Assembly: GCA_021776115.1 (NCBI GenBank) | Contig: JAJFGN010000058.1 | Span: forward strand, 1 to 64,000 | Source: Kiloniellaceae bacterium | GTDB lineage: Bacteria > Pseudomonadota > Alphaproteobacteria > Kiloniellales > J153 | Direction of reading: 5' to 3' | Length of the DNA stretch: 64,000 nucleotides | Shown here: positions 10,240-61,152 of the stretch, piece after piece | Layout of the letters: every line of letters starts with the position of its first letter | How positions within the stretch are numbered: position 1 is the stretch's first letter | Notes under the pieces: model-generated | What the model was told of the DNA's origin: nothing | The model's database searches: none | What the model saw: only the letters and a program-made list of their open reading frames with translations | Made by a program: the position numbers and the translations under genes

Positions 10240-12111
10240 ATGACGATGGCGAGTTCTGAAGGTTCCCAACAAAATCCAACCTCTCAAAAGGCCGCCCTGC
10301 CGGACCGGCATGGGGCGCCGGAATCCCTAAACGGCCAAGCAGATGCGCTTTTCCTGAGCGCGCCGGGAGATGCGGAACGCAGTGTCCACAAGGTCTATCC
10401 CGACCAGATTGTCGGTGCCCAATTCCCCTCGACCGCAGCCAGCGCCCTCCTCGAGGGGCCGGACTTGGTGCTCGCCTTCTCTAATGGCGGAGCCATCGTA
10501 CTGGCCGGATTTCTGAGCGCGCTACAGGCTGAAAACCCGCCCCAACTGGTATTCGAGGACGGCACGATATTCGCGTTCCCAAGCCATCTCGCCAGAGCCG
10601 CACCGGTCCAGGAGGACACAGGCTTGAGTGTCGCTTCCGGTCCCGGCGCGCCGGCGCCCGAGACCGACCCCGGCGTACCGACGGGCCAGCGCACATTTGA
10701 AAGAGATCAAGGATACGGGGAAGACTTTGGTGGCCTGAGCGAGGGGTTAGAAGCGTCCGGCACGCTTTCTTCGCCTGGATTCGCGGCACCGGACCAAGTG
10801 GCCGCTTCCGGCGGCGAACGACGCACGCCCGCACAGCCGGCCTCGGACTTGATCCTAGTCGACCCGGATTCGGGGATCCTTATCGACCCGGATTCGGGTT
10901 CGCCCCAGGCCGAAGCCCAGGTTCAACCAGTTGCCGGCAACACCCCGCCCAGCGGCCTCAGCTTGAGCGGCGGTTCGGTAGACGAATTGATCTTCGCGGG
11001 CATCCCGGTCGGGTTTGCGTCCGCCACCGATCCTGACGCAGGCGACAGCCTTACCTTCGCTCTGACCAACGACGCGGGGGGACGTTTCGTCGTCAACGCG
11101 GTCAGCGGCCTTGTCTCGACCGCCTTGCCCTTGGACTTCGAAACGGCCGCGAGCCATACGATTACCGTGCGTGCCACAGATTCAGCCGGCGCCGCGACCG
11201 AGGGGTCGTTCACGATCGCTGTCAACGACCTCAGCGAAATTGCCGGCAGCGCTGGTGCCGATGTCCTGGTCGGAACCGCGCAGATCGACGTGATCGACGG
11301 TCAAGACGGCGACGACCAGATTTCCGGGGGCGACGGCAACGACATTATCTTTGGTGGCATCGGCCGCGACACCCTGGACGGCGAAGGCGGTGACGACTCG
11401 CTCTTTGGCGAGGCGGAGAACGATATCCTTATCGGCGGTCCCGGTGCGGACCGCTTGTTCGGCGGTAGCGGTAACGACGCGCTCTTTATCGACGCCAACG
11501 ACATCTTTATCGACGGCGGCGCGGGCACGGACCGGGTTGACGTACAGGGCGCGGCAGGCGTGACCTTGAACATGACGTCGAGCAGCATCGAACTGGCTTT
11601 CGGTGGTGCGGGTAACGATATTTTCGACGCCACGGGGTCGAGCGCCAGCATCCGCCAGGATGGCGCCGGGGGTAACGACACCTTGACCGGCGGTAACGGG
11701 GGCGACAGGCTCCGCGGCGCGGACGGCGCCGACACGTTATTCGGCGGCGCCGGCGGCGATCTGCTCGATGGCGGCGCCCAAAACGACAGCCTCACCGGTG
11801 GAGCCGGCTCGGATGTCTTCGTTTTCAACTTGAGCTTTGCCGGCGGCCAGTTCACGGCCGAAGGAAACGACACGATCGCCGATCTTACGACCGCCGACAC
11901 CTTAAGTTTCCGTGGCCTGCTCGACGTGAACGGCGACACATTCGTCGATCTCGCGGATTTGATCGGGCACGTCTCGGTGGCCAGCGCAGGCGCCACAACG
12001 ACCCTGTCCTTCGATGGCGGTGGATCGGTTGATCTATCCGGCATCGCCGGCCCCTTCGGCAGCCTGGCCGATTTAACCGCCGCCGGTTTCACGCTCGAGG
12101 GCATGGCCTAG
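10240..12111 (+). CDS. RTX-type calcium-binding secreted protein with cadherin-like domain
   Basis: About 623 residues in three parts. The N-terminal ~120 residues resemble the FecR/Tir-like N-terminal segment of large surface proteins (DLVLAFSNGGAIVLAGF). An Ala/Pro-rich linker follows, with a duplicated DPDSG motif. Next is a cadherin-type domain (NTPPSGLSLSG to ITVRATDSAG), then two blocks of glycine-aspartate nonapeptides (DGEGGDDSLFG, DGADTLFGGAGGD) that bind calcium. The C terminus fits an uncleaved type I secretion signal. The start is uncertain: ATG at 10240 or 10246, or TTG at 10228, none with a clear ribosome site. No type I secretion genes are in the window. Confidence 0.85.
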   Translation: MTMASSEGSQQNPTSQKAALPDRHGAPESLNGQADALFLSAPGDAERSVHKVYPDQIVGAQFPSTAASALLEGPDLVLAFSNGGAIVLAGFLSALQAENPPQLVFEDGTIFAFPSHLARAAPVQEDTGLSVASGPGAPAPETDPGVPTGQRTFERDQGYGEDFGGLSEGLEASGTLSSPGFAAPDQVAASGGERRTPAQPASDLILVDPDSGILIDPDSGSPQAEAQVQPVAGNTPPSGLSLSGGSVDELIFAGIPVGFASATDPDAGDSLTFALTNDAGGRFVVNAVSGLVSTALPLDFETAASHTITVRATDSAGAATEGSFTIAVNDLSEIAGSAGADVLVGTAQIDVIDGQDGDDQISGGDGNDIIFGGIGRDTLDGEGGDDSLFGEAENDILIGGPGADRLFGGSGNDALFIDANDIFIDGGAGTDRVDVQGAAGVTLNMTSSSIELAFGGAGNDIFDATGSSASIRQDGAGGNDTLTGGNGGDRLRGADGADTLFGGAGGDLLDGGAQNDSLTGGAGSDVFVFNLSFAGGQFTAEGNDTIADLTTADTLSFRGLLDVNGDTFVDLADLIGHVSVASAGATTTLSFDGGGSVDLSGIAGPFGSLADLTAAGFTLEGMA

Positions 12112-34278: not shown

Positions 34279-35226
34279 GTGCCAGACGCCCCTAACGCCG
34301 TGCAGAAGTCGTCGGCTAGCCTAAGAGATCGCCTGAGCGAACAAGACTTCGCGATCACGGCGGAGGTCCCACCTCCGCTGGCCGCGGCCCCGGAAGCGAT
34401 GCTCGCCCTGGCCGCGCCCCTGCGCGACCGGGTTGACGCGATCAACGTGACCGATGCGGCCGGCGCCCGGATCGCCATGTCCAGTTTGGCGGCGGCGGCG
34501 ATCTTACGCCGTGCCGGGGTCGAGCCGATCCTGCAAATGACCTGCCGCGACCGCAACCGGATCGCCCTTGCCGGCGATCTCTTGGGGGCGGCGGCCTTGG
34601 GAGTCGAGAATATCTTGGTGCTGCATGGCGACGACCCAAGCCAGGGCGATGCGCCGGACGCCAAGCCGGTATTCGATTTGGACAGCCGCGAGGTTATGAG
34701 CCTGGCGCGGCAACTTCGCGACGAAGGTGTCTTACCCTCGGGACGGAAGATCGAATCGCCACCGCGGTTCTTCATCGGGGCCGCGGATTCGCCGCACGAC
34801 CCGGCCGCGGGTTGGCGGCCCGACACTTTAATCGCCAAGCAAGCGGCAGGCGCCGAGTTCGTGCAAACGCAGTTCTGCTTCAACGCCGGGGTCGTGCGCC
34901 GCTACATGGCGCGTTTGTCCGAATTTGGCTTGGCAGAGAAGTTGCGCTTTTTGATCGGGGTCGGACCGGTCGCCTCGGCGGCAAGCGCGCGCTGGATGAA
35001 CGAAAAGCTATTCGGCGTGCACGTGCCCGAACCGGTGATCGAGCGCCTGGAGCGAGCCGACGACCCGGCAGCCGAAGGCCAGCGGATCTGCGTCGAATTG
35101 ATTCATGAACTGCGCCAGATCGACGGCGTGGCCGGCGTGCATATCATGGCGCCGCGCGGTGGCGCGCCCGCGATCGCGAAGGTCATCGACGGCTTGTCTC
35201 AAACTCAGCGTGTGAGATTCAGATAG
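34279..35226 (+). CDS. Methylenetetrahydrofolate reductase family protein
   Basis: FAD-dependent TIM-barrel protein of 315 residues. AITAEVPPPLAAAPEAM places the catalytic Glu found in MetF, and INVTDAAGARIAMSSLAAAAIL, PILQMTCRDRN and NILVLHGDDPSQGD match the folate/FAD site of the family. It is more divergent than E. coli MetF, as in methyl-transfer or C1 catabolic versions. Start is GTG at 34279, four bases after the previous stop. It could feed or drain the methyl-THF pool used by the DmdA-like protein at 7526; that link is an inference. Confidence 0.85.
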   Translation: MPDAPNAVQKSSASLRDRLSEQDFAITAEVPPPLAAAPEAMLALAAPLRDRVDAINVTDAAGARIAMSSLAAAAILRRAGVEPILQMTCRDRNRIALAGDLLGAAALGVENILVLHGDDPSQGDAPDAKPVFDLDSREVMSLARQLRDEGVLPSGRKIESPPRFFIGAADSPHDPAAGWRPDTLIAKQAAGAEFVQTQFCFNAGVVRRYMARLSEFGLAEKLRFLIGVGPVASAASARWMNEKLFGVHVPEPVIERLERADDPAAEGQRICVELIHELRQIDGVAGVHIMAPRGGAPAIAKVIDGLSQTQRVRFR

Positions 35227-35260
35227 AGTCTGAGTTTCAGATAGAGTCTGAGTTTCAGAC
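35218..35260. repeat. Tandem 18-bp repeat at convergent gene ends
   Basis: TTCAGATAGAGTCTGAGT occurs twice head to tail (35218-35235, 35236-35253), then the first six bases recur. Each unit holds a small palindrome (CAGA-TAGAG-TCTG). The repeat covers the end of the MetF homologue and reaches the stop of the convergent 94-aa gene, so it could act in termination from both sides. Confidence 0.8.
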
Positions 35261-51561: not shown

Positions 51562-52080
51562 ATGGACATCCGACCAACAGTTACATCCGAAACGGCCGTG
51601 CGCGAATTAACCACAGAACCCCTGACAATTGAACGAATTGACCAAGCCTTTCCCCTGGTCCAGACCTCCTTGCCGCATATCCTCCTGGACGACTGGCGCG
51701 GCTTTGCACGCGATAAGATTCGCGCGGGCGCCTCCGGTTCCGAAGGTATACAGAGCGTCATCGCGGAGCAAAATTATATCGCCGGCCTGAGCATATACCG
51801 CATTGAGACGGTCCTTTTCCACGGCCCAGCCCTGATTGCGGACCATTTCATGGCCCTCGACCTCTTCGACCGCCCGGCCGTGGCCCACGCCTTGGCGGAA
51901 TTTCTGGAGGATCTGGGGCGCCAGCGTGGCTGTACCGCCTTGCACACCAATATCCCCGAGAGCGGTGTTCGCTGGCAGGGGTCAGACGACTGCTTGGCCT
52001 CGATCCTGCGCGAACGCGGCCACACCGTCGAATCGCTGCTTCTGTGCAAGACGCTCGGCAACGCACCCGTGCGCAGCTAG
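51562..52080 (+). CDS. Hypothetical GNAT-like protein
   Basis: A 172-residue protein with a pattern like the N-acetyltransferase fold: an N-terminal helix-loop (IDQAFPLVQTSLPHILLDDW), strands, a helix with ALAEFLEDLGRQRGC and ALHTNIPES. The acetyl-CoA-binding Q/RxxGxG/A loop is not clear, so activity is doubtful. The start is the ATG at 51562. Its stop overlaps that of the histidine kinase by four bases on the other strand. Confidence 0.6.
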   Translation: MDIRPTVTSETAVRELTTEPLTIERIDQAFPLVQTSLPHILLDDWRGFARDKIRAGASGSEGIQSVIAEQNYIAGLSIYRIETVLFHGPALIADHFMALDLFDRPAVAHALAEFLEDLGRQRGCTALHTNIPESGVRWQGSDDCLASILRERGHTVESLLLCKTLGNAPVRS

Positions 52081-53480
52081 CGGTCGGTTCCGGGGTTCGG
52101 TAAGACCAGCTTGAAGCGTGTCCCCTCGGCGGTCGAGCTCTCCAAACGCAAATCGCCCCCATGCGCCCGCATTAACTCGCGAGCGATCGCCAGGCCCAGC
52201 CCGGTCCCGCCGGGCCGCGCCGAGCCGGCGAAGGGCACGAACAGGTTCTCCCGCGCCCGTGGCGGCAGGCCGGAGCCGTTGTCGGTAACATAGATCACGG
52301 TCTGATCCCCGTCGCGTTCAGCGGTGACATCGACCCGCGCCGCGCCGGCGTGGATCGAATTTTGGCTCAGGTTGCTCAGGACTCGGTGAAGCTGCTCCTT
52401 GTCGGCCTCAATCTCGAAGGCGCCGTCGAACAGACAGCGAAGCGCGGGCGTCCCGTTGATTTTCTCCGGCAGGTTCTGGCCGACGTCGGCGACCAGCTCA
52501 GCCAGGTCGAAACGGCGCGGCTCTATCCTCGGCGCGCCCTGGCGGGTGAAATCGAGCGTTTGAGCGCACAGATTGACGGCCCGGTCGATGGCGCCCATCA
52601 GGGTCGGCGTCACGCGTTGCACCTCCGGGTCCCCGCTCGCCGCCAGGCGGTCGGAGACCAAACGCGCCGTGGCCAGAATGTTTCGCAAATCGTGATTGAT
52701 CTTGGTGACGGCGGTTCCCAGCGCGGCCAGATGCGCGCGCTGTTGCAGGGCATCGCGCAAGCCATGCTGCATGCTTGCCAGCTCGCGCCGGGCAACCCCG
52801 ATCTCGTCGGTGCGCGCGGTCGGCAAAGCTATTCGCGACGCATCCTCGGGGTCCTCGCGAAAGCGCGCCATGTTCTCCGTCAGGCGGCGCAGGGGCCTCA
52901 CCATGAGCAGATGCAGGCTGAGATACACCAGCGCGGCCGTGAATAGCGAAATACCGAACGAAAGACCCAGAATACGGTTGCCGTAACCGATCATCAGGGT
53001 CCGGAGTTCGGCTTCGTCGAGCACGATCTCAACCAGAATATTCGGATCGTTTGGCGAGGGCCCGACCACGCGCAAAATCCGGCCGCCGTCGCCCAGCAAG
53101 GTTCTCACGGCGCTGCCGATCAGGGCAAAGAAGTTGGTGTCCCGCAGATCGAAGCTGGTGTCGAGCCGGTCGGGCTCGGCCGACATGAGCATGAGCTTTC
53201 CAGCGTTCGGCTTGGTCAGAGCAACCATGTAAGCGCCGACGTGGGTCAGCAGCTCGCGTTCCAGCTCCTCGCTGACCATGTTGTCCGGGGTCGCCTCGAG
53301 CGCCAGGATAGCCAGGTGCGCGTCGCCCAGGCGCTCCTGCAGGTAAGTCAGACGAAACCGGCCGATGGAGGGCGCGAAAATCAGCACCTCGGCCAGCATC
53401 ACGAACGCGATCGTCAGAAGCAGAAGCTTTGCCGACAGGCTCTTGGCCAGCGGCGGTAGTCGCAGCTTGGTCACCGTCAT
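52077..53480 (-). CDS. Sensor histidine kinase with HAMP domain
   Basis: A 467-residue membrane kinase: two membrane segments (residues ~18-38 and 175-195) bound a periplasmic sensor, then HAMP (VRPLRRLTENMARF). The phospho-acceptor His is in KINHDLRNILATARLVS; N box NLSQNSI, G1 TDNGSGLP and G2 GGTGLGLAIAREL are intact. ATG at 53480. No response regulator lies beside it, so its partner is elsewhere. It follows the CNPC-repeat gene on the same strand. Confidence 0.92.
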   Translation of the reverse strand: MTVTKLRLPPLAKSLSAKLLLLTIAFVMLAEVLIFAPSIGRFRLTYLQERLGDAHLAILALEATPDNMVSEELERELLTHVGAYMVALTKPNAGKLMLMSAEPDRLDTSFDLRDTNFFALIGSAVRTLLGDGGRILRVVGPSPNDPNILVEIVLDEAELRTLMIGYGNRILGLSFGISLFTAALVYLSLHLLMVRPLRRLTENMARFREDPEDASRIALPTARTDEIGVARRELASMQHGLRDALQQRAHLAALGTAVTKINHDLRNILATARLVSDRLAASGDPEVQRVTPTLMGAIDRAVNLCAQTLDFTRQGAPRIEPRRFDLAELVADVGQNLPEKINGTPALRCLFDGAFEIEADKEQLHRVLSNLSQNSIHAGAARVDVTAERDGDQTVIYVTDNGSGLPPRARENLFVPFAGSARPGGTGLGLAIARELMRAHGGDLRLESSTAEGTRFKLVLPNPGTDR

Positions 53481-53708
53481 AGTATGATTATACCATGAAG
53501 TGGCCGCGCAGGTACGGCTAAGGCGCAAACAACCCGCGCCGCGACGTTTTTCGGTGTGCGGGCCAAGGCCCAACGACGGAGAGCGTCCGGCCCGGGTCCA
53601 GTGGGATCGAAAGAAGTGGCGCGCCGCTACCGACCAAGGGAGAGGGAGGGTTCGGAAGGCAGCGGACGCGCCGGCACCTCAGCAATCGAAGGCCAACTTC
53701 GCTTGAAC

Positions 53709-54002
53709 CTAGTTGGTCGTCGCCTTGCAGGGGTTGCAGGGGTTGCACTTGGCCGCCGCGCAGGGGTTGCACGGATTGCACTTCTTGGCCGCCGCGCAAG
53801 GGTTGCAGGGATTGCACTTCTTGGCCGCCGCACAGGGGTTGCAGGGATTGCATTTGGCCGCCGCACAGGGATTACACTTCTTTGCGTCGCTCGCGGCGAT
53901 CTGCACCGGGGTGTCGGCCGCTTTCGCGCTGGCGCCCGGAAGGGTGGCAGCGCCCGTCGCCAAGGTTGCGACGCTCAGTGCTAGAATTGTCTTCTTAATC
54001 AT
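53709..54002 (-). CDS. Periplasmic CNPC-repeat protein, cysteine-rich
   Basis: A 97-residue protein: signal peptide (MIKKTILALSVATLATGAAT, cleaved near GASAKA) and a mature tail that is almost all Cys-Asn-Pro-Cys. One CNPC, then four CNPCNPC blocks, separated by AAAK or AAAKK spacers: 14 cysteines. The DNA repeats with a 33-36 bp period. The ATG at 54002 follows AGGAGG. Exported Cys-rich repeats of this type suggest metal (copper, zinc) binding or a modified peptide; neither is shown by sequence. An MbnB-like or DUF692 maturase is not adjacent. Confidence 0.8.
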   Translation of the reverse strand: MIKKTILALSVATLATGAATLPGASAKAADTPVQIAASDAKKCNPCAAAKCNPCNPCAAAKKCNPCNPCAAAKKCNPCNPCAAAKCNPCNPCKATTN

Positions 54003-54297: not shown

Positions 54298-55722
54298 TCA
54301 GCCCAGACGGGCGAGCAAGCGAACCAGCCATTTGGTGCGCTCGCTAAATAGCTTAGGCACGTAGAAGCTGCCCGCCGCGCGCTTGTTGGCTTCGCCCAGA
54401 GTCGGGTAGGGCGCGATCATTTCGGCCAGGGCCGAGACCTTGGCGCCTTGAGACATCGCCAGCACCCAGGGTTGAATCAACTCCCCCGCCTGCTCCCCGA
54501 CGATGGAAGCGCCCAAAATCTTGCCGTTCGGCGCGGTGACCGCCTTAACCAGGCCACTGGTTTTCCGCTCCGCCTGGGCCCGGTCGTTTTCCGCGAAAGG
54601 CCAGCGCAGGATACGGATATCGCCATGCGCCTCGCGCGCGGCTTCCTCGGTCATCCCGACCTGGGCAAGCTCGGGCGCGGTGTAGGTGACCCAGGGCATG
54701 GACCGGGTATCGACCTTCGCCGGCCAACGGAACAAGGCGTTCTTAATGACGACCCCGGCGTGGTATCCGGCCATGTGGGTGAACTGCGGGCCCCCGGCCA
54801 CATCGCCTGCCGCAAAAACGCGCCGGTTCGTGGTGCGCAAGCGGCCGTCGACCTTTACGCCGCGCCGATCGAAAGCGATGCCCGCCGCCTCAAGGCCCAA
54901 ACCCTCGAGGCTTGGCGTTCGGCCGGCTGCGAGCAGCAAGGTGGAGCCGGTAATCCGGTCCTCCTGGCCGTCGCGCTCGATCCTGACGCCGACACCGCCG
55001 TCCGTGCGCTCGACCCCGACGACCTTGGCGCCTTCGTAGAGATGGATACCGTCGGCGCGCAATTTGTTGCGCAGGACCGAGACCAGCTCCGGATCATCCT
55101 TGGGCAAAATAGCGGCCATCTCGACGATGCTGACCTTGGCGCCGAGGAGCCGAAACGCCTGGCCGAGTTCGCAGCCGATCGGCCCGCCTCCGATGACGAT
55201 CAGATGATCCGGCCGCTCGGTCAGATCGAAAACCGTTTCGTTGGTCAGGAACTCGACGCCGTCGAGCCCGGGGATCGGCGGAACCAGGGGCCGGGATCCG
55301 GTCGCCACCACGAAGCGCCGGGCCCGGATGCGGGTGCCGCCCGCCTCGACCTCGCGTACGTTAACGAAGCGTCCGGCGGTTTTGAGAACGGTAACCCCAA
55401 GGCCCTCGAAGCGCTCCTCCGAATCCATCGGGGCGATCGAGCCGATTACACCCTGCACGTGATCGTGGACCGCCTGGAAATCGATGCGCGGCGGGTCGAA
55501 ATGAACCCCTAGGGCCTCGGCGCGGAGGTGCCCGGTGGCGGCCTTGGCGGCAACCAGCAGGGCCTTCGAGGGAATACAGCCATAATTCAGGCAGTCGCCG
55601 CCCATCGCGGCCTTTTCGATCAAGACCGTATCGGCCCCCATTTGCGACGCGCCCGCCGCGATGGACAGGCCGGCGGAGCCGGCGCCGAGAACGCAGATGT
55701 CCGGCGTTAGGATATCATTCAT
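54298..55722 (-). CDS. FAD-dependent disulfide reductase, MerA/Lpd-like
   Basis: A 474-residue class I pyridine-nucleotide-disulfide oxidoreductase. The FAD site is GAGSAGLSIA, the redox pair Cys in GGDCLNYGCIPSKA, the NAD(P)H site GGGPIGCELG and the second FAD motif AAGDVAGGPQFTH. In the C-terminal motif APYPTLGEA, Tyr replaces the catalytic His of Lpd and glutathione reductase, as in MerA, but the MerA C-terminal Cys pair is missing. Such proteins often pair with TVP38-family proteins, as here. The substrate is unknown. Confidence 0.9.
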   Translation of the reverse strand: MNDILTPDICVLGAGSAGLSIAAGASQMGADTVLIEKAAMGGDCLNYGCIPSKALLVAAKAATGHLRAEALGVHFDPPRIDFQAVHDHVQGVIGSIAPMDSEERFEGLGVTVLKTAGRFVNVREVEAGGTRIRARRFVVATGSRPLVPPIPGLDGVEFLTNETVFDLTERPDHLIVIGGGPIGCELGQAFRLLGAKVSIVEMAAILPKDDPELVSVLRNKLRADGIHLYEGAKVVGVERTDGGVGVRIERDGQEDRITGSTLLLAAGRTPSLEGLGLEAAGIAFDRRGVKVDGRLRTTNRRVFAAGDVAGGPQFTHMAGYHAGVVIKNALFRWPAKVDTRSMPWVTYTAPELAQVGMTEEAAREAHGDIRILRWPFAENDRAQAERKTSGLVKAVTAPNGKILGASIVGEQAGELIQPWVLAMSQGAKVSALAEMIAPYPTLGEANKRAAGSFYVPKLFSERTKWLVRLLARLG

Positions 55723-55814: not shown

Positions 55815-56564
55815 TCAACCCGATCCGGCCTGGCGCGCCCTGATTTTCTTATAGACCACGGGCAGCAGTGCCAAGATAGCAATGCCGAGGATTGGAATCA
55901 GGATCTCCGGTGTGAAGATGATCCGCAGGTCCGGCGTATCACCGGCGTCCAGGATCGCCCCCAGTCCGTTACCGAGGCTCGCGTAGACGAAGGTGCCGGG
56001 GATGATGCCGAAAAAGGTCCCGATCACGTAAACGCGCAGCGAAATACCCAGGAACGCCGGCACCAGATTGACCAGCCAGAACGGGAACAGCGGTATCAAG
56101 CGCAGCACCAGGAGGTAATTCAGGGCATTTTCCCGGAAGCCTTCCTCCATGCGGCGCAGGGCTGGGCCGGCCTTGGCGCGCAGCACATCGCCCAAGGCCG
56201 TGCGCGCCGCCAGGAACAGGCCTGTCGCCCCCAGCGTGGCCCCGATCACGACGCAAACCGCCGCCGGCACGGTCCCAAATAGAAATCCGGCGGTCACGGT
56301 CAGCAAGGCGCCCCCGGGAATCGAGAAGGCCACGACCAAGGCGTAGATCGCGACGAACGCCAAGCCAGCGAGCAAAGGACTGTCTTCGACCTGGTCCGCC
56401 AGCCAATCGCGATGCTCGCGCAGGGCGTCGAGCCCAACAAAGCGGTCCAAGCCGAGGGCGAAGAACAGCGCCAAGCCCACACCCAGGATCGCCAGGGGCG
56501 CTAATCGGTAGAGCAAGCGCCCCTTCTTGGCGGTTCTGCCGGCGGAACCGGTCATCGCATTCAC
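55815..56564 (-). CDS. TVP38/TMEM64 family (DedA superfamily) membrane protein
   Basis: A 249-residue inner-membrane protein with about six segments. SIPGGALLTVTAGFLFGTVPA and the conserved RLIPLFPFWLVNLVPA with GTFFGIIPGTFVY mark the VTT/SNARE-associated fold. The family is linked to lipid scrambling or metal/ion homeostasis. It is 92 bp upstream of the flavoprotein on the same strand, a frequent pairing. The start is the ATG at 56564. Confidence 0.9.
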   Translation of the reverse strand: MNAMTGSAGRTAKKGRLLYRLAPLAILGVGLALFFALGLDRFVGLDALREHRDWLADQVEDSPLLAGLAFVAIYALVVAFSIPGGALLTVTAGFLFGTVPAAVCVVIGATLGATGLFLAARTALGDVLRAKAGPALRRMEEGFRENALNYLLVLRLIPLFPFWLVNLVPAFLGISLRVYVIGTFFGIIPGTFVYASLGNGLGAILDAGDTPDLRIIFTPEILIPILGIAILALLPVVYKKIRARQAGSG

Positions 56565-60243: not shown

Positions 60244-61152
60244 ATGAGTCAGAGAAACTTCACGGACACAAAGCATTGGCTGCGCACGGCGCGGACGCTC
60301 AGCGAAGCCTTGCCCTTCATGCGCCGCTATGCCGGGCAAACCTTCGTCATCAAGTATGGCGGCCATGCCATGGGCGACCCGGCATTGGCGGAAGTCTTCG
60401 CCAAGGACATCGTGCTGATGAAGCAGGTCGGAATCCATCCCGTGGTCGTGCACGGCGGCGGGCCGCAGATCGGGCAAATGCTGGAGCGCCTGAAAATACA
60501 AAGCGAGTTCGTCGACGGCCTGCGCGTGACCGATGCCGCGACCGTCGATATCGTCGAGATGGTGCTGTCGGGCAACATCAACAAAGCCATCGTCAATGCC
60601 ATAAATGCGGCGGGCGGCACCGCCATAGGACTATCGGGTAAAGACGGCGGTCTGATCCAGGCAACGCGCCTGCGCCGGAGCGTGCGCGACAGCGAATCCA
60701 ATATCGAGAAAGTTCTCGACCTCGGCTTCGTCGGCGAACCGAAAACCATCAAACCGAAGATCCTGACCGCCTTGGAGCAATCGGGCATGATTCCGGTGAT
60801 CGCCCCCATCGGGGTCGGCGAAGCCGGCGAGACCTATAACATCAATGCCGACACGGTCGCGGGCGCGATCGCGGGCGCGATCGGCGCGGCGCGGTTGCTG
60901 TTGCTGACCGATGTGATCGGGGTCTTGGACAAGGCGGGAGAACTGGTCACCGACCTAACCGTGGATAAAACCCGCGCGCTATGCGCCGACGGGACGATCT
61001 CCGGCGGCATGATTCCCAAGGTGGAGACCTGCATCGCCGCGGTTCAAAGCGGGGTCGAGGCGGCGGTGATCTTGGACGGACGAGTCCCGCATACCCTATT
61101 GCTGGAAATCTTCACCGACCGCGGCATCGGAACGCTCATCAAGCGGACTTAA
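60244..61152 (+). CDS. argB: Acetylglutamate kinase
   Basis: Second step of arginine synthesis, phosphorylating N-acetylglutamate. The 302 residues have [25 protein letters not shown], the substrate-binding [20 protein letters not shown] and MIPKVETC. The long N-terminal helix ([17 protein letters not shown]) is typical of arginine-inhibited hexameric forms, so feedback control is likely. ATG at 60244. It ends the conserved block. Confidence 0.97.

Follow-up and report, generated by a model that had tools for sequence, protein, structure and literature searches.

A cysteine-repeat gene and its neighbors

The minus strand of the window, the 64,000-nucleotide stretch of DNA analyzed here, contains a 97-amino acid open reading frame (ORF; 53709..54002, ATG at 54002 and stop at 53709) with 14 cysteines and an AGGAGG ribosome-binding site 6 nt 5' of its ATG. 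This ORF, supported by its translation and by orthologs, was the only one in the 64 kb to pass a Cys-repeat filter. In its product, MIKKTILALSVATLATGAATLPGASAKAADTPVQIAASDAKK precedes one CNPC and four CNPCNPC blocks with AAAK or AAAKK spacers, and these five blocks hold all 14 cysteines. Codons 1 to 30 (53913..54002, minus strand) encode an N-terminal Sec-type signal sequence, judged by eye and by its conservation in orthologs, bearing out the earlier note's description of an exported CNPC-repeat protein with 14 cysteines. No Pfam or NCBIfam model matched the protein, including DUF2282/Buf1 (Buf2 and EGKCG have no public model) and the metallothionein families. AlphaFold2 predicted a disordered chain with a pLDDT of 40 and no secondary structure.

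The blocks are encoded by a degenerate 36-bp tandem array of CNPC(NPC)AAAK units (53727..53870, minus strand; 4.2 copies with 89% matches by TRF). Differences between the blocks are mainly synonymous (pS of 0.385, pN of 0.064), which marks the array as a sequence under selection, not a tract newly made by slippage. Compared with sister species G001, the last four blocks contain zero nonsynonymous differences. The CNPC protein sequence is under purifying selection. The earlier note had proposed that the DNA repeats in step and that slippage can change copy number; the repeat is there, and block number and type do differ between sister species, but the array is too degenerate and too clearly selected to be a recent product of slippage. 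TRF also reported short tandem repeats elsewhere in the window, at 10851-10898, 34779-34824, 35213-35259 and 60857-60893.

Three co-directional genes accompany the CNPC gene on the minus strand, each identified by domain match and as a conserved neighbor. The order is a TVP38/VTT-domain membrane protein (55815..56564; PF09335), a MerA/dihydrolipoyl-dehydrogenase-like FAD oxidoreductase (54298..55722) that has no export signal, the CNPC gene, and downstream a HAMP/HisKA/HATPase sensor histidine kinase (52077..53489). The earlier note had called for a search for conserved neighbors in relatives, and tblastn recovered the co-directional TVP38-(MerA)-CNPC-kinase order at 22 loci, two Sneathiella-type genomes among them, in a count that tolerates contig edges and some losses. 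By the same searches the MerA-like match is absent from L075 and L077-L079, where TVP38, CNPC and kinase are all present, and L073 and L074 gave no TVP38 match. The set may be a stress-response operon; the intergenic gaps of 295 and 219 nt in the window leave room for separate promoters. Scanning for consensus promoter and terminator sequences gave no match, and the genes next to the CNPC gene include no dedicated copper transporter or regulator.

Family members and heme-domain fusions

Family members were found in 35 of 58 relatives, and a Chlamydiia match (L058) proved to be a different Cys-rich protein and was excluded. Sneathiella chungangensis is one example of a cultured carrier. Across 89 members we observed a conserved N-P-C core, A/K spacers and between 7 and 60 cysteines, with commonest Cys-Cys steps of 3, 6 and 5. 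The residue before the asparagine is often not cysteine, so the evenly spaced CxxC units described in the earlier note do not hold for the family, and some relatives have repeats entirely without proline. The cysteines themselves, whose loss from homologs the earlier note had named, together with absent metal binding, as a refutation, are kept. The CNPC protein is a member of a widespread, undescribed family of bacterial cysteine-repeat proteins.

Relatives carry two forms, a short one like that of the window and a long one in which the repeats lie before or inside a cytochrome P460 domain, with CxxCH kept in all 34 of 34 P460 fusions. The window's own genome encodes a second family member, of this long type (G000:C37; L061 8261-9346), whose P460 domain scores 26.1 bits, just under the cut-off of 27, with CxxCH present as in the other fusions; an adjoining stand-alone P460 protein scores 35.3 bits against the same cut-off. 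That region (L061 6423-9877) contains, in a row, a LysR-type regulator, the stand-alone cytochrome P460, the CNPC-P460 fusion and a Sel1-like protein. Elsewhere, Cys- and Met-rich NPC repeats (NPCAPANPCAAMKPMG) are fused to a P460 domain in L203 (5744-6838), adjoining a gene for DUF6969 (PF22308), and these Met-rich motifs suggest copper. Gammaproteobacterial members, for example in Vreelandella utahensis, have repeats on either side of a SoxA/TsdA-like cytochrome c. The repeat gene of Halospina denitrificans (L059 9462-10013) seems to shift frame ahead of its cytochrome domain, possibly through a frameshift or a sequencing error.

These fusions bear on two alternative roles. The CNPC dithiols could pass electrons, sulfane sulfur or NO to the fused heme domains and to the adjoining pyridine-nucleotide-disulfide oxidoreductase, as the P460 and SoxA/TsdA-like fusions, the MerA-like flavoprotein next to the CNPC gene, and a YeeE/YedE sulfur transporter and DUF302 near L091 would allow. 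We regard such a redox relay as distinctly improbable, given that the oxidoreductase carries no export signal and is missing at four CNPC loci, and that the Burkholderia glumae repeat gene described below sits in a metal-stress context. A disulfide-held structural or cross-linking envelope protein would suit a low-complexity chain that is predicted to be disordered and exported, but it would explain neither the heme-domain fusions nor the recurrent partner genes and metal-stress context, and we consider it very improbable.

Linkage to DUF6969 and an FGE-like protein

DUF6969 genes adjoin distant members of the CNPC family, and a literature search on the CNPC repeat and DUF6969 returned no relevant paper. 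Among the 58 relatives, DUF6969 is encoded in 34 of 35 genomes with a CNPC protein versus 11 of 23 others, and the lone exception (G039) is a 72% complete genome. Of 289 alphaproteobacterial genomes, 28 have two or more NPCNPC sites and 25 of these encode DUF6969, against 45 of the 261 without (Fisher p of 1.7e-14); both comparisons are uncorrected for shared ancestry. Around 79 DUF6969 loci, the density of ORFs with Cys repeats is 0.095 per kb out to 3 kb and 0.007 per kb at 3 to 7 kb, an approximately 13-fold difference, and 36 of the 79 have such an ORF within 3 kb, although some of these loci were picked for the closeness of both genes, which inflates the fraction and the ratio. A less biased set of 20 DUF6969 loci from genomes without the NPCNPC pattern still yielded a divergent Cys-repeat protein nearby in 8, as did most loci from the wider phylum, and about half of all examined DUF6969 loci have no Cys-repeat gene near them.

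Linkage to DUF6969 outlasts changes in the repeat itself. The linked motifs include CGAC (L183), KCAPKC (B. glumae), CAAKKP (L206), ACAAGC (L209), NPCAAK and the Cys/Met-rich form of L203; between clades the motif drifts while the export signal, the cysteine density and DUF6969 are retained. Such drift around a maintained cysteine density is more what one expects of a buffer that works through its thiols than of a protein with a catalytic or adhesive function. CNPC-type repeats define a family partnered with DUF6969. In most genomes of the window's own bacterial order, DUF6969 and CNPC are not linked, and in L166 the TVP38-MerA-CNPC arrangement of the window occurs with DUF6969 adjoining.

A protein related to formylglycine-generating enzyme (FGE-sulfatase-like) with an N-terminal export signal, as judged by eye, often adjoins the repeat genes and DUF6969. 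These partners carry a PF03781 domain (E values of 1e-46 and 3e-37). The motif KGGSWDDxGCG[VI]CR is invariant among them, present in 20 of 20 proteins, and the alignments do not fix the position of its GCG[VI]C relative to the canonical FGE cysteine pair. Pairs of FGE-like and DUF6969 genes at L152, L154, L155 and L132 often adjoin genes for TRAP-type transporters (TAXI-like binding proteins) and a universal-stress-protein-like gene. An apparent FGE-DUF6969 fusion in L174 was dropped, as its long ORF arises by extension out of frame.

A single DUF6969 gene occurs in the window's genome, beside an FGE-like gene on another contig (G000:C26). The earlier note's remark that no known maturase flanks the CNPC gene is correct within the window but misleading, since candidate partners are encoded elsewhere in the genome. 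The ties to DUF6969 and the secreted FGE-like protein in relatives resemble a maturase setting, and we infer that the distant pair serves the CNPC protein of the window.

No signal sequence is evident in DUF6969. Its invariant residues form a cluster (H80, H82, E94, H95, H97 and H99, plus E59, H62, D67 and D70), which includes E-H-G-H-F-H and H-x-H. An AlphaFold2 model built from 6 sequences is fairly good overall (pTM of 0.84, pLDDT of 77.6) and weakest around residues 50-70. A Foldseek search with the model returned no solved fold at E <= 0.001. The highest VIA-align score was a Z of 4.7, covering 51 residues, and no fold could be named; the lack of a match does not by itself establish a new fold. 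Because no solved fold matched, an enzymatic activity for DUF6969 is a guess.

A proposed metal buffer handled by DUF6969

Bufferins are Sec-exported, Cys-rich, copper-binding proteins that are modified before export (PMC12452194). The CNPC protein has a similar Sec signal and poly-Cys body, and might accordingly be taken for an ordinary MNIO-modified bufferin or oxazolin of the known metallophore class. Searches for MNIO (PF05114) gave zero matches in the window's genome, a 98.7% complete draft, which is strong but not absolute evidence of absence, and on this basis we rejected MNIO maturation of the CNPC protein in that genome. In addition, the distribution of the family does not track MNIO, and DUF2282 and all other Pfam and NCBIfam models failed to match, making membership of the known class extremely improbable. 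Both types of system occur together on Burkholderia glumae plasmid p2_YH43 (L194/L196), where two MNIO bufferin clusters containing DUF2282, DUF692, a DNA-binding-domain protein and DoxX are close to a DUF6969/KCAPKC pair. The same plasmid island carries merC/merR, arsenosugar genes and a TVP38/FAD-oxidoreductase fusion.

Based on the bufferin precedent and the metal context of DUF6969 in B. glumae, we propose a bufferin-like role in which DUF6969 replaces MNIO. The CNPC protein would be a poly-Cys soft-metal buffer, an MNIO-independent analog of bufferins whose precursor is handled by DUF6969 before export; this is our preferred reading, held tentatively at somewhat under an even chance. DUF6969 would bind or modify the reduced precursor in the cytosol, Sec would then export it, and the FGE-like protein may act on the product in the periplasm. 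There the protein would buffer soft metal ions, most likely Cu(I), with a capacity set by block number, while the adjoining histidine kinase and oxidoreductase may sense or support the stress response. The single DUF6969/FGE-like pair would serve both family members of the genome. The family, its conservation, its partners and its contexts are observed, while metal binding, modification and export are inferred from them. Outside the cytoplasm the protein probably binds up toxic metals, copper among them. The two readings offered in the earlier note, a metal sponge and the substrate of a modifying enzyme, are both partly supported.

A simpler alternative is an unmodified, metallothionein-like sponge whose thiols bind metal directly in the periplasm, with DUF6969 acting as a cytosolic chaperone that holds the precursor in a reduced state fit for export. 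The extreme cysteine density (14 of 97 residues, and up to 60 cysteines in fusions) and the predicted disorder are consistent with it, as is the drift of the motifs around retained cysteines, which an enzyme with strict recognition would resist. A plain sponge would have no need for the frequent FGE-like partner, however, and bufferins are a precedent for modification of an exported Cys-rich buffer (PMC12452194); we judge it unlikely, if still a serious contender. A more ambitious form of the modification model would make DUF6969 a new class of peptide-modifying metalloenzyme with CNPC-type proteins as its substrates, forming an RiPP-like, MNIO-independent route to periplasmic poly-Cys metallophores that is finished by the secreted FGE-like copper enzyme and sometimes wired to heme. 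We put this forward as speculation that is probably wrong in its full extent.

A buffer handled by DUF6969 would supply a functional hypothesis and a candidate substrate for this unstudied domain, which roughly one in four of the alphaproteobacterial genomes sampled encode, and would suggest that exported Cys-rich metal buffers have evolved on more than one occasion, with distinct partner enzymes.

Comparison with known systems

The CNPC family shares with bufferins and oxazolins a Sec signal (here assigned by inspection), a Cys-rich body and a cytosolic partner. Cytochrome c and FGE-sulfatase domains occur fused to some bufferins, bufferin-cytochrome c-FGE fusions having been reported (PMC12452194), and DoxX genes lie near bufferins and CNPC-type genes alike. 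The CNPC case differs in having no MNIO in the genome, no DUF2282, another repeat, and a different constant partner, DUF6969. In canonical FGE a bis-thiolate site of two cysteines holds Cu(I), and the enzyme oxidizes the cysteine of CXPXR (PMC12123546). The partner protein likewise belongs to PF03781 but has the invariant GCG[VI]C, and the CNPC repeats share C-x-P with the FGE consensus but are missing its arginine. Cytochrome P460 recurs as the C-terminal domain of the long paralog, CxxCH included, with CNPC repeats preceding or interrupting it. Metallothioneins have a similarly high cysteine content and CxxC dithiols, whereas the CNPC family is predicted to be exported, consists of low-complexity (C)NPC repeats, matches no family model and includes heme fusions. 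The copper-storage protein Csp1 is an exported protein that stores Cu(I) with many inward-facing cysteines in a four-helix bundle. The CNPC protein likewise has abundant cysteines and a predicted export signal; its chain is predicted to be disordered.
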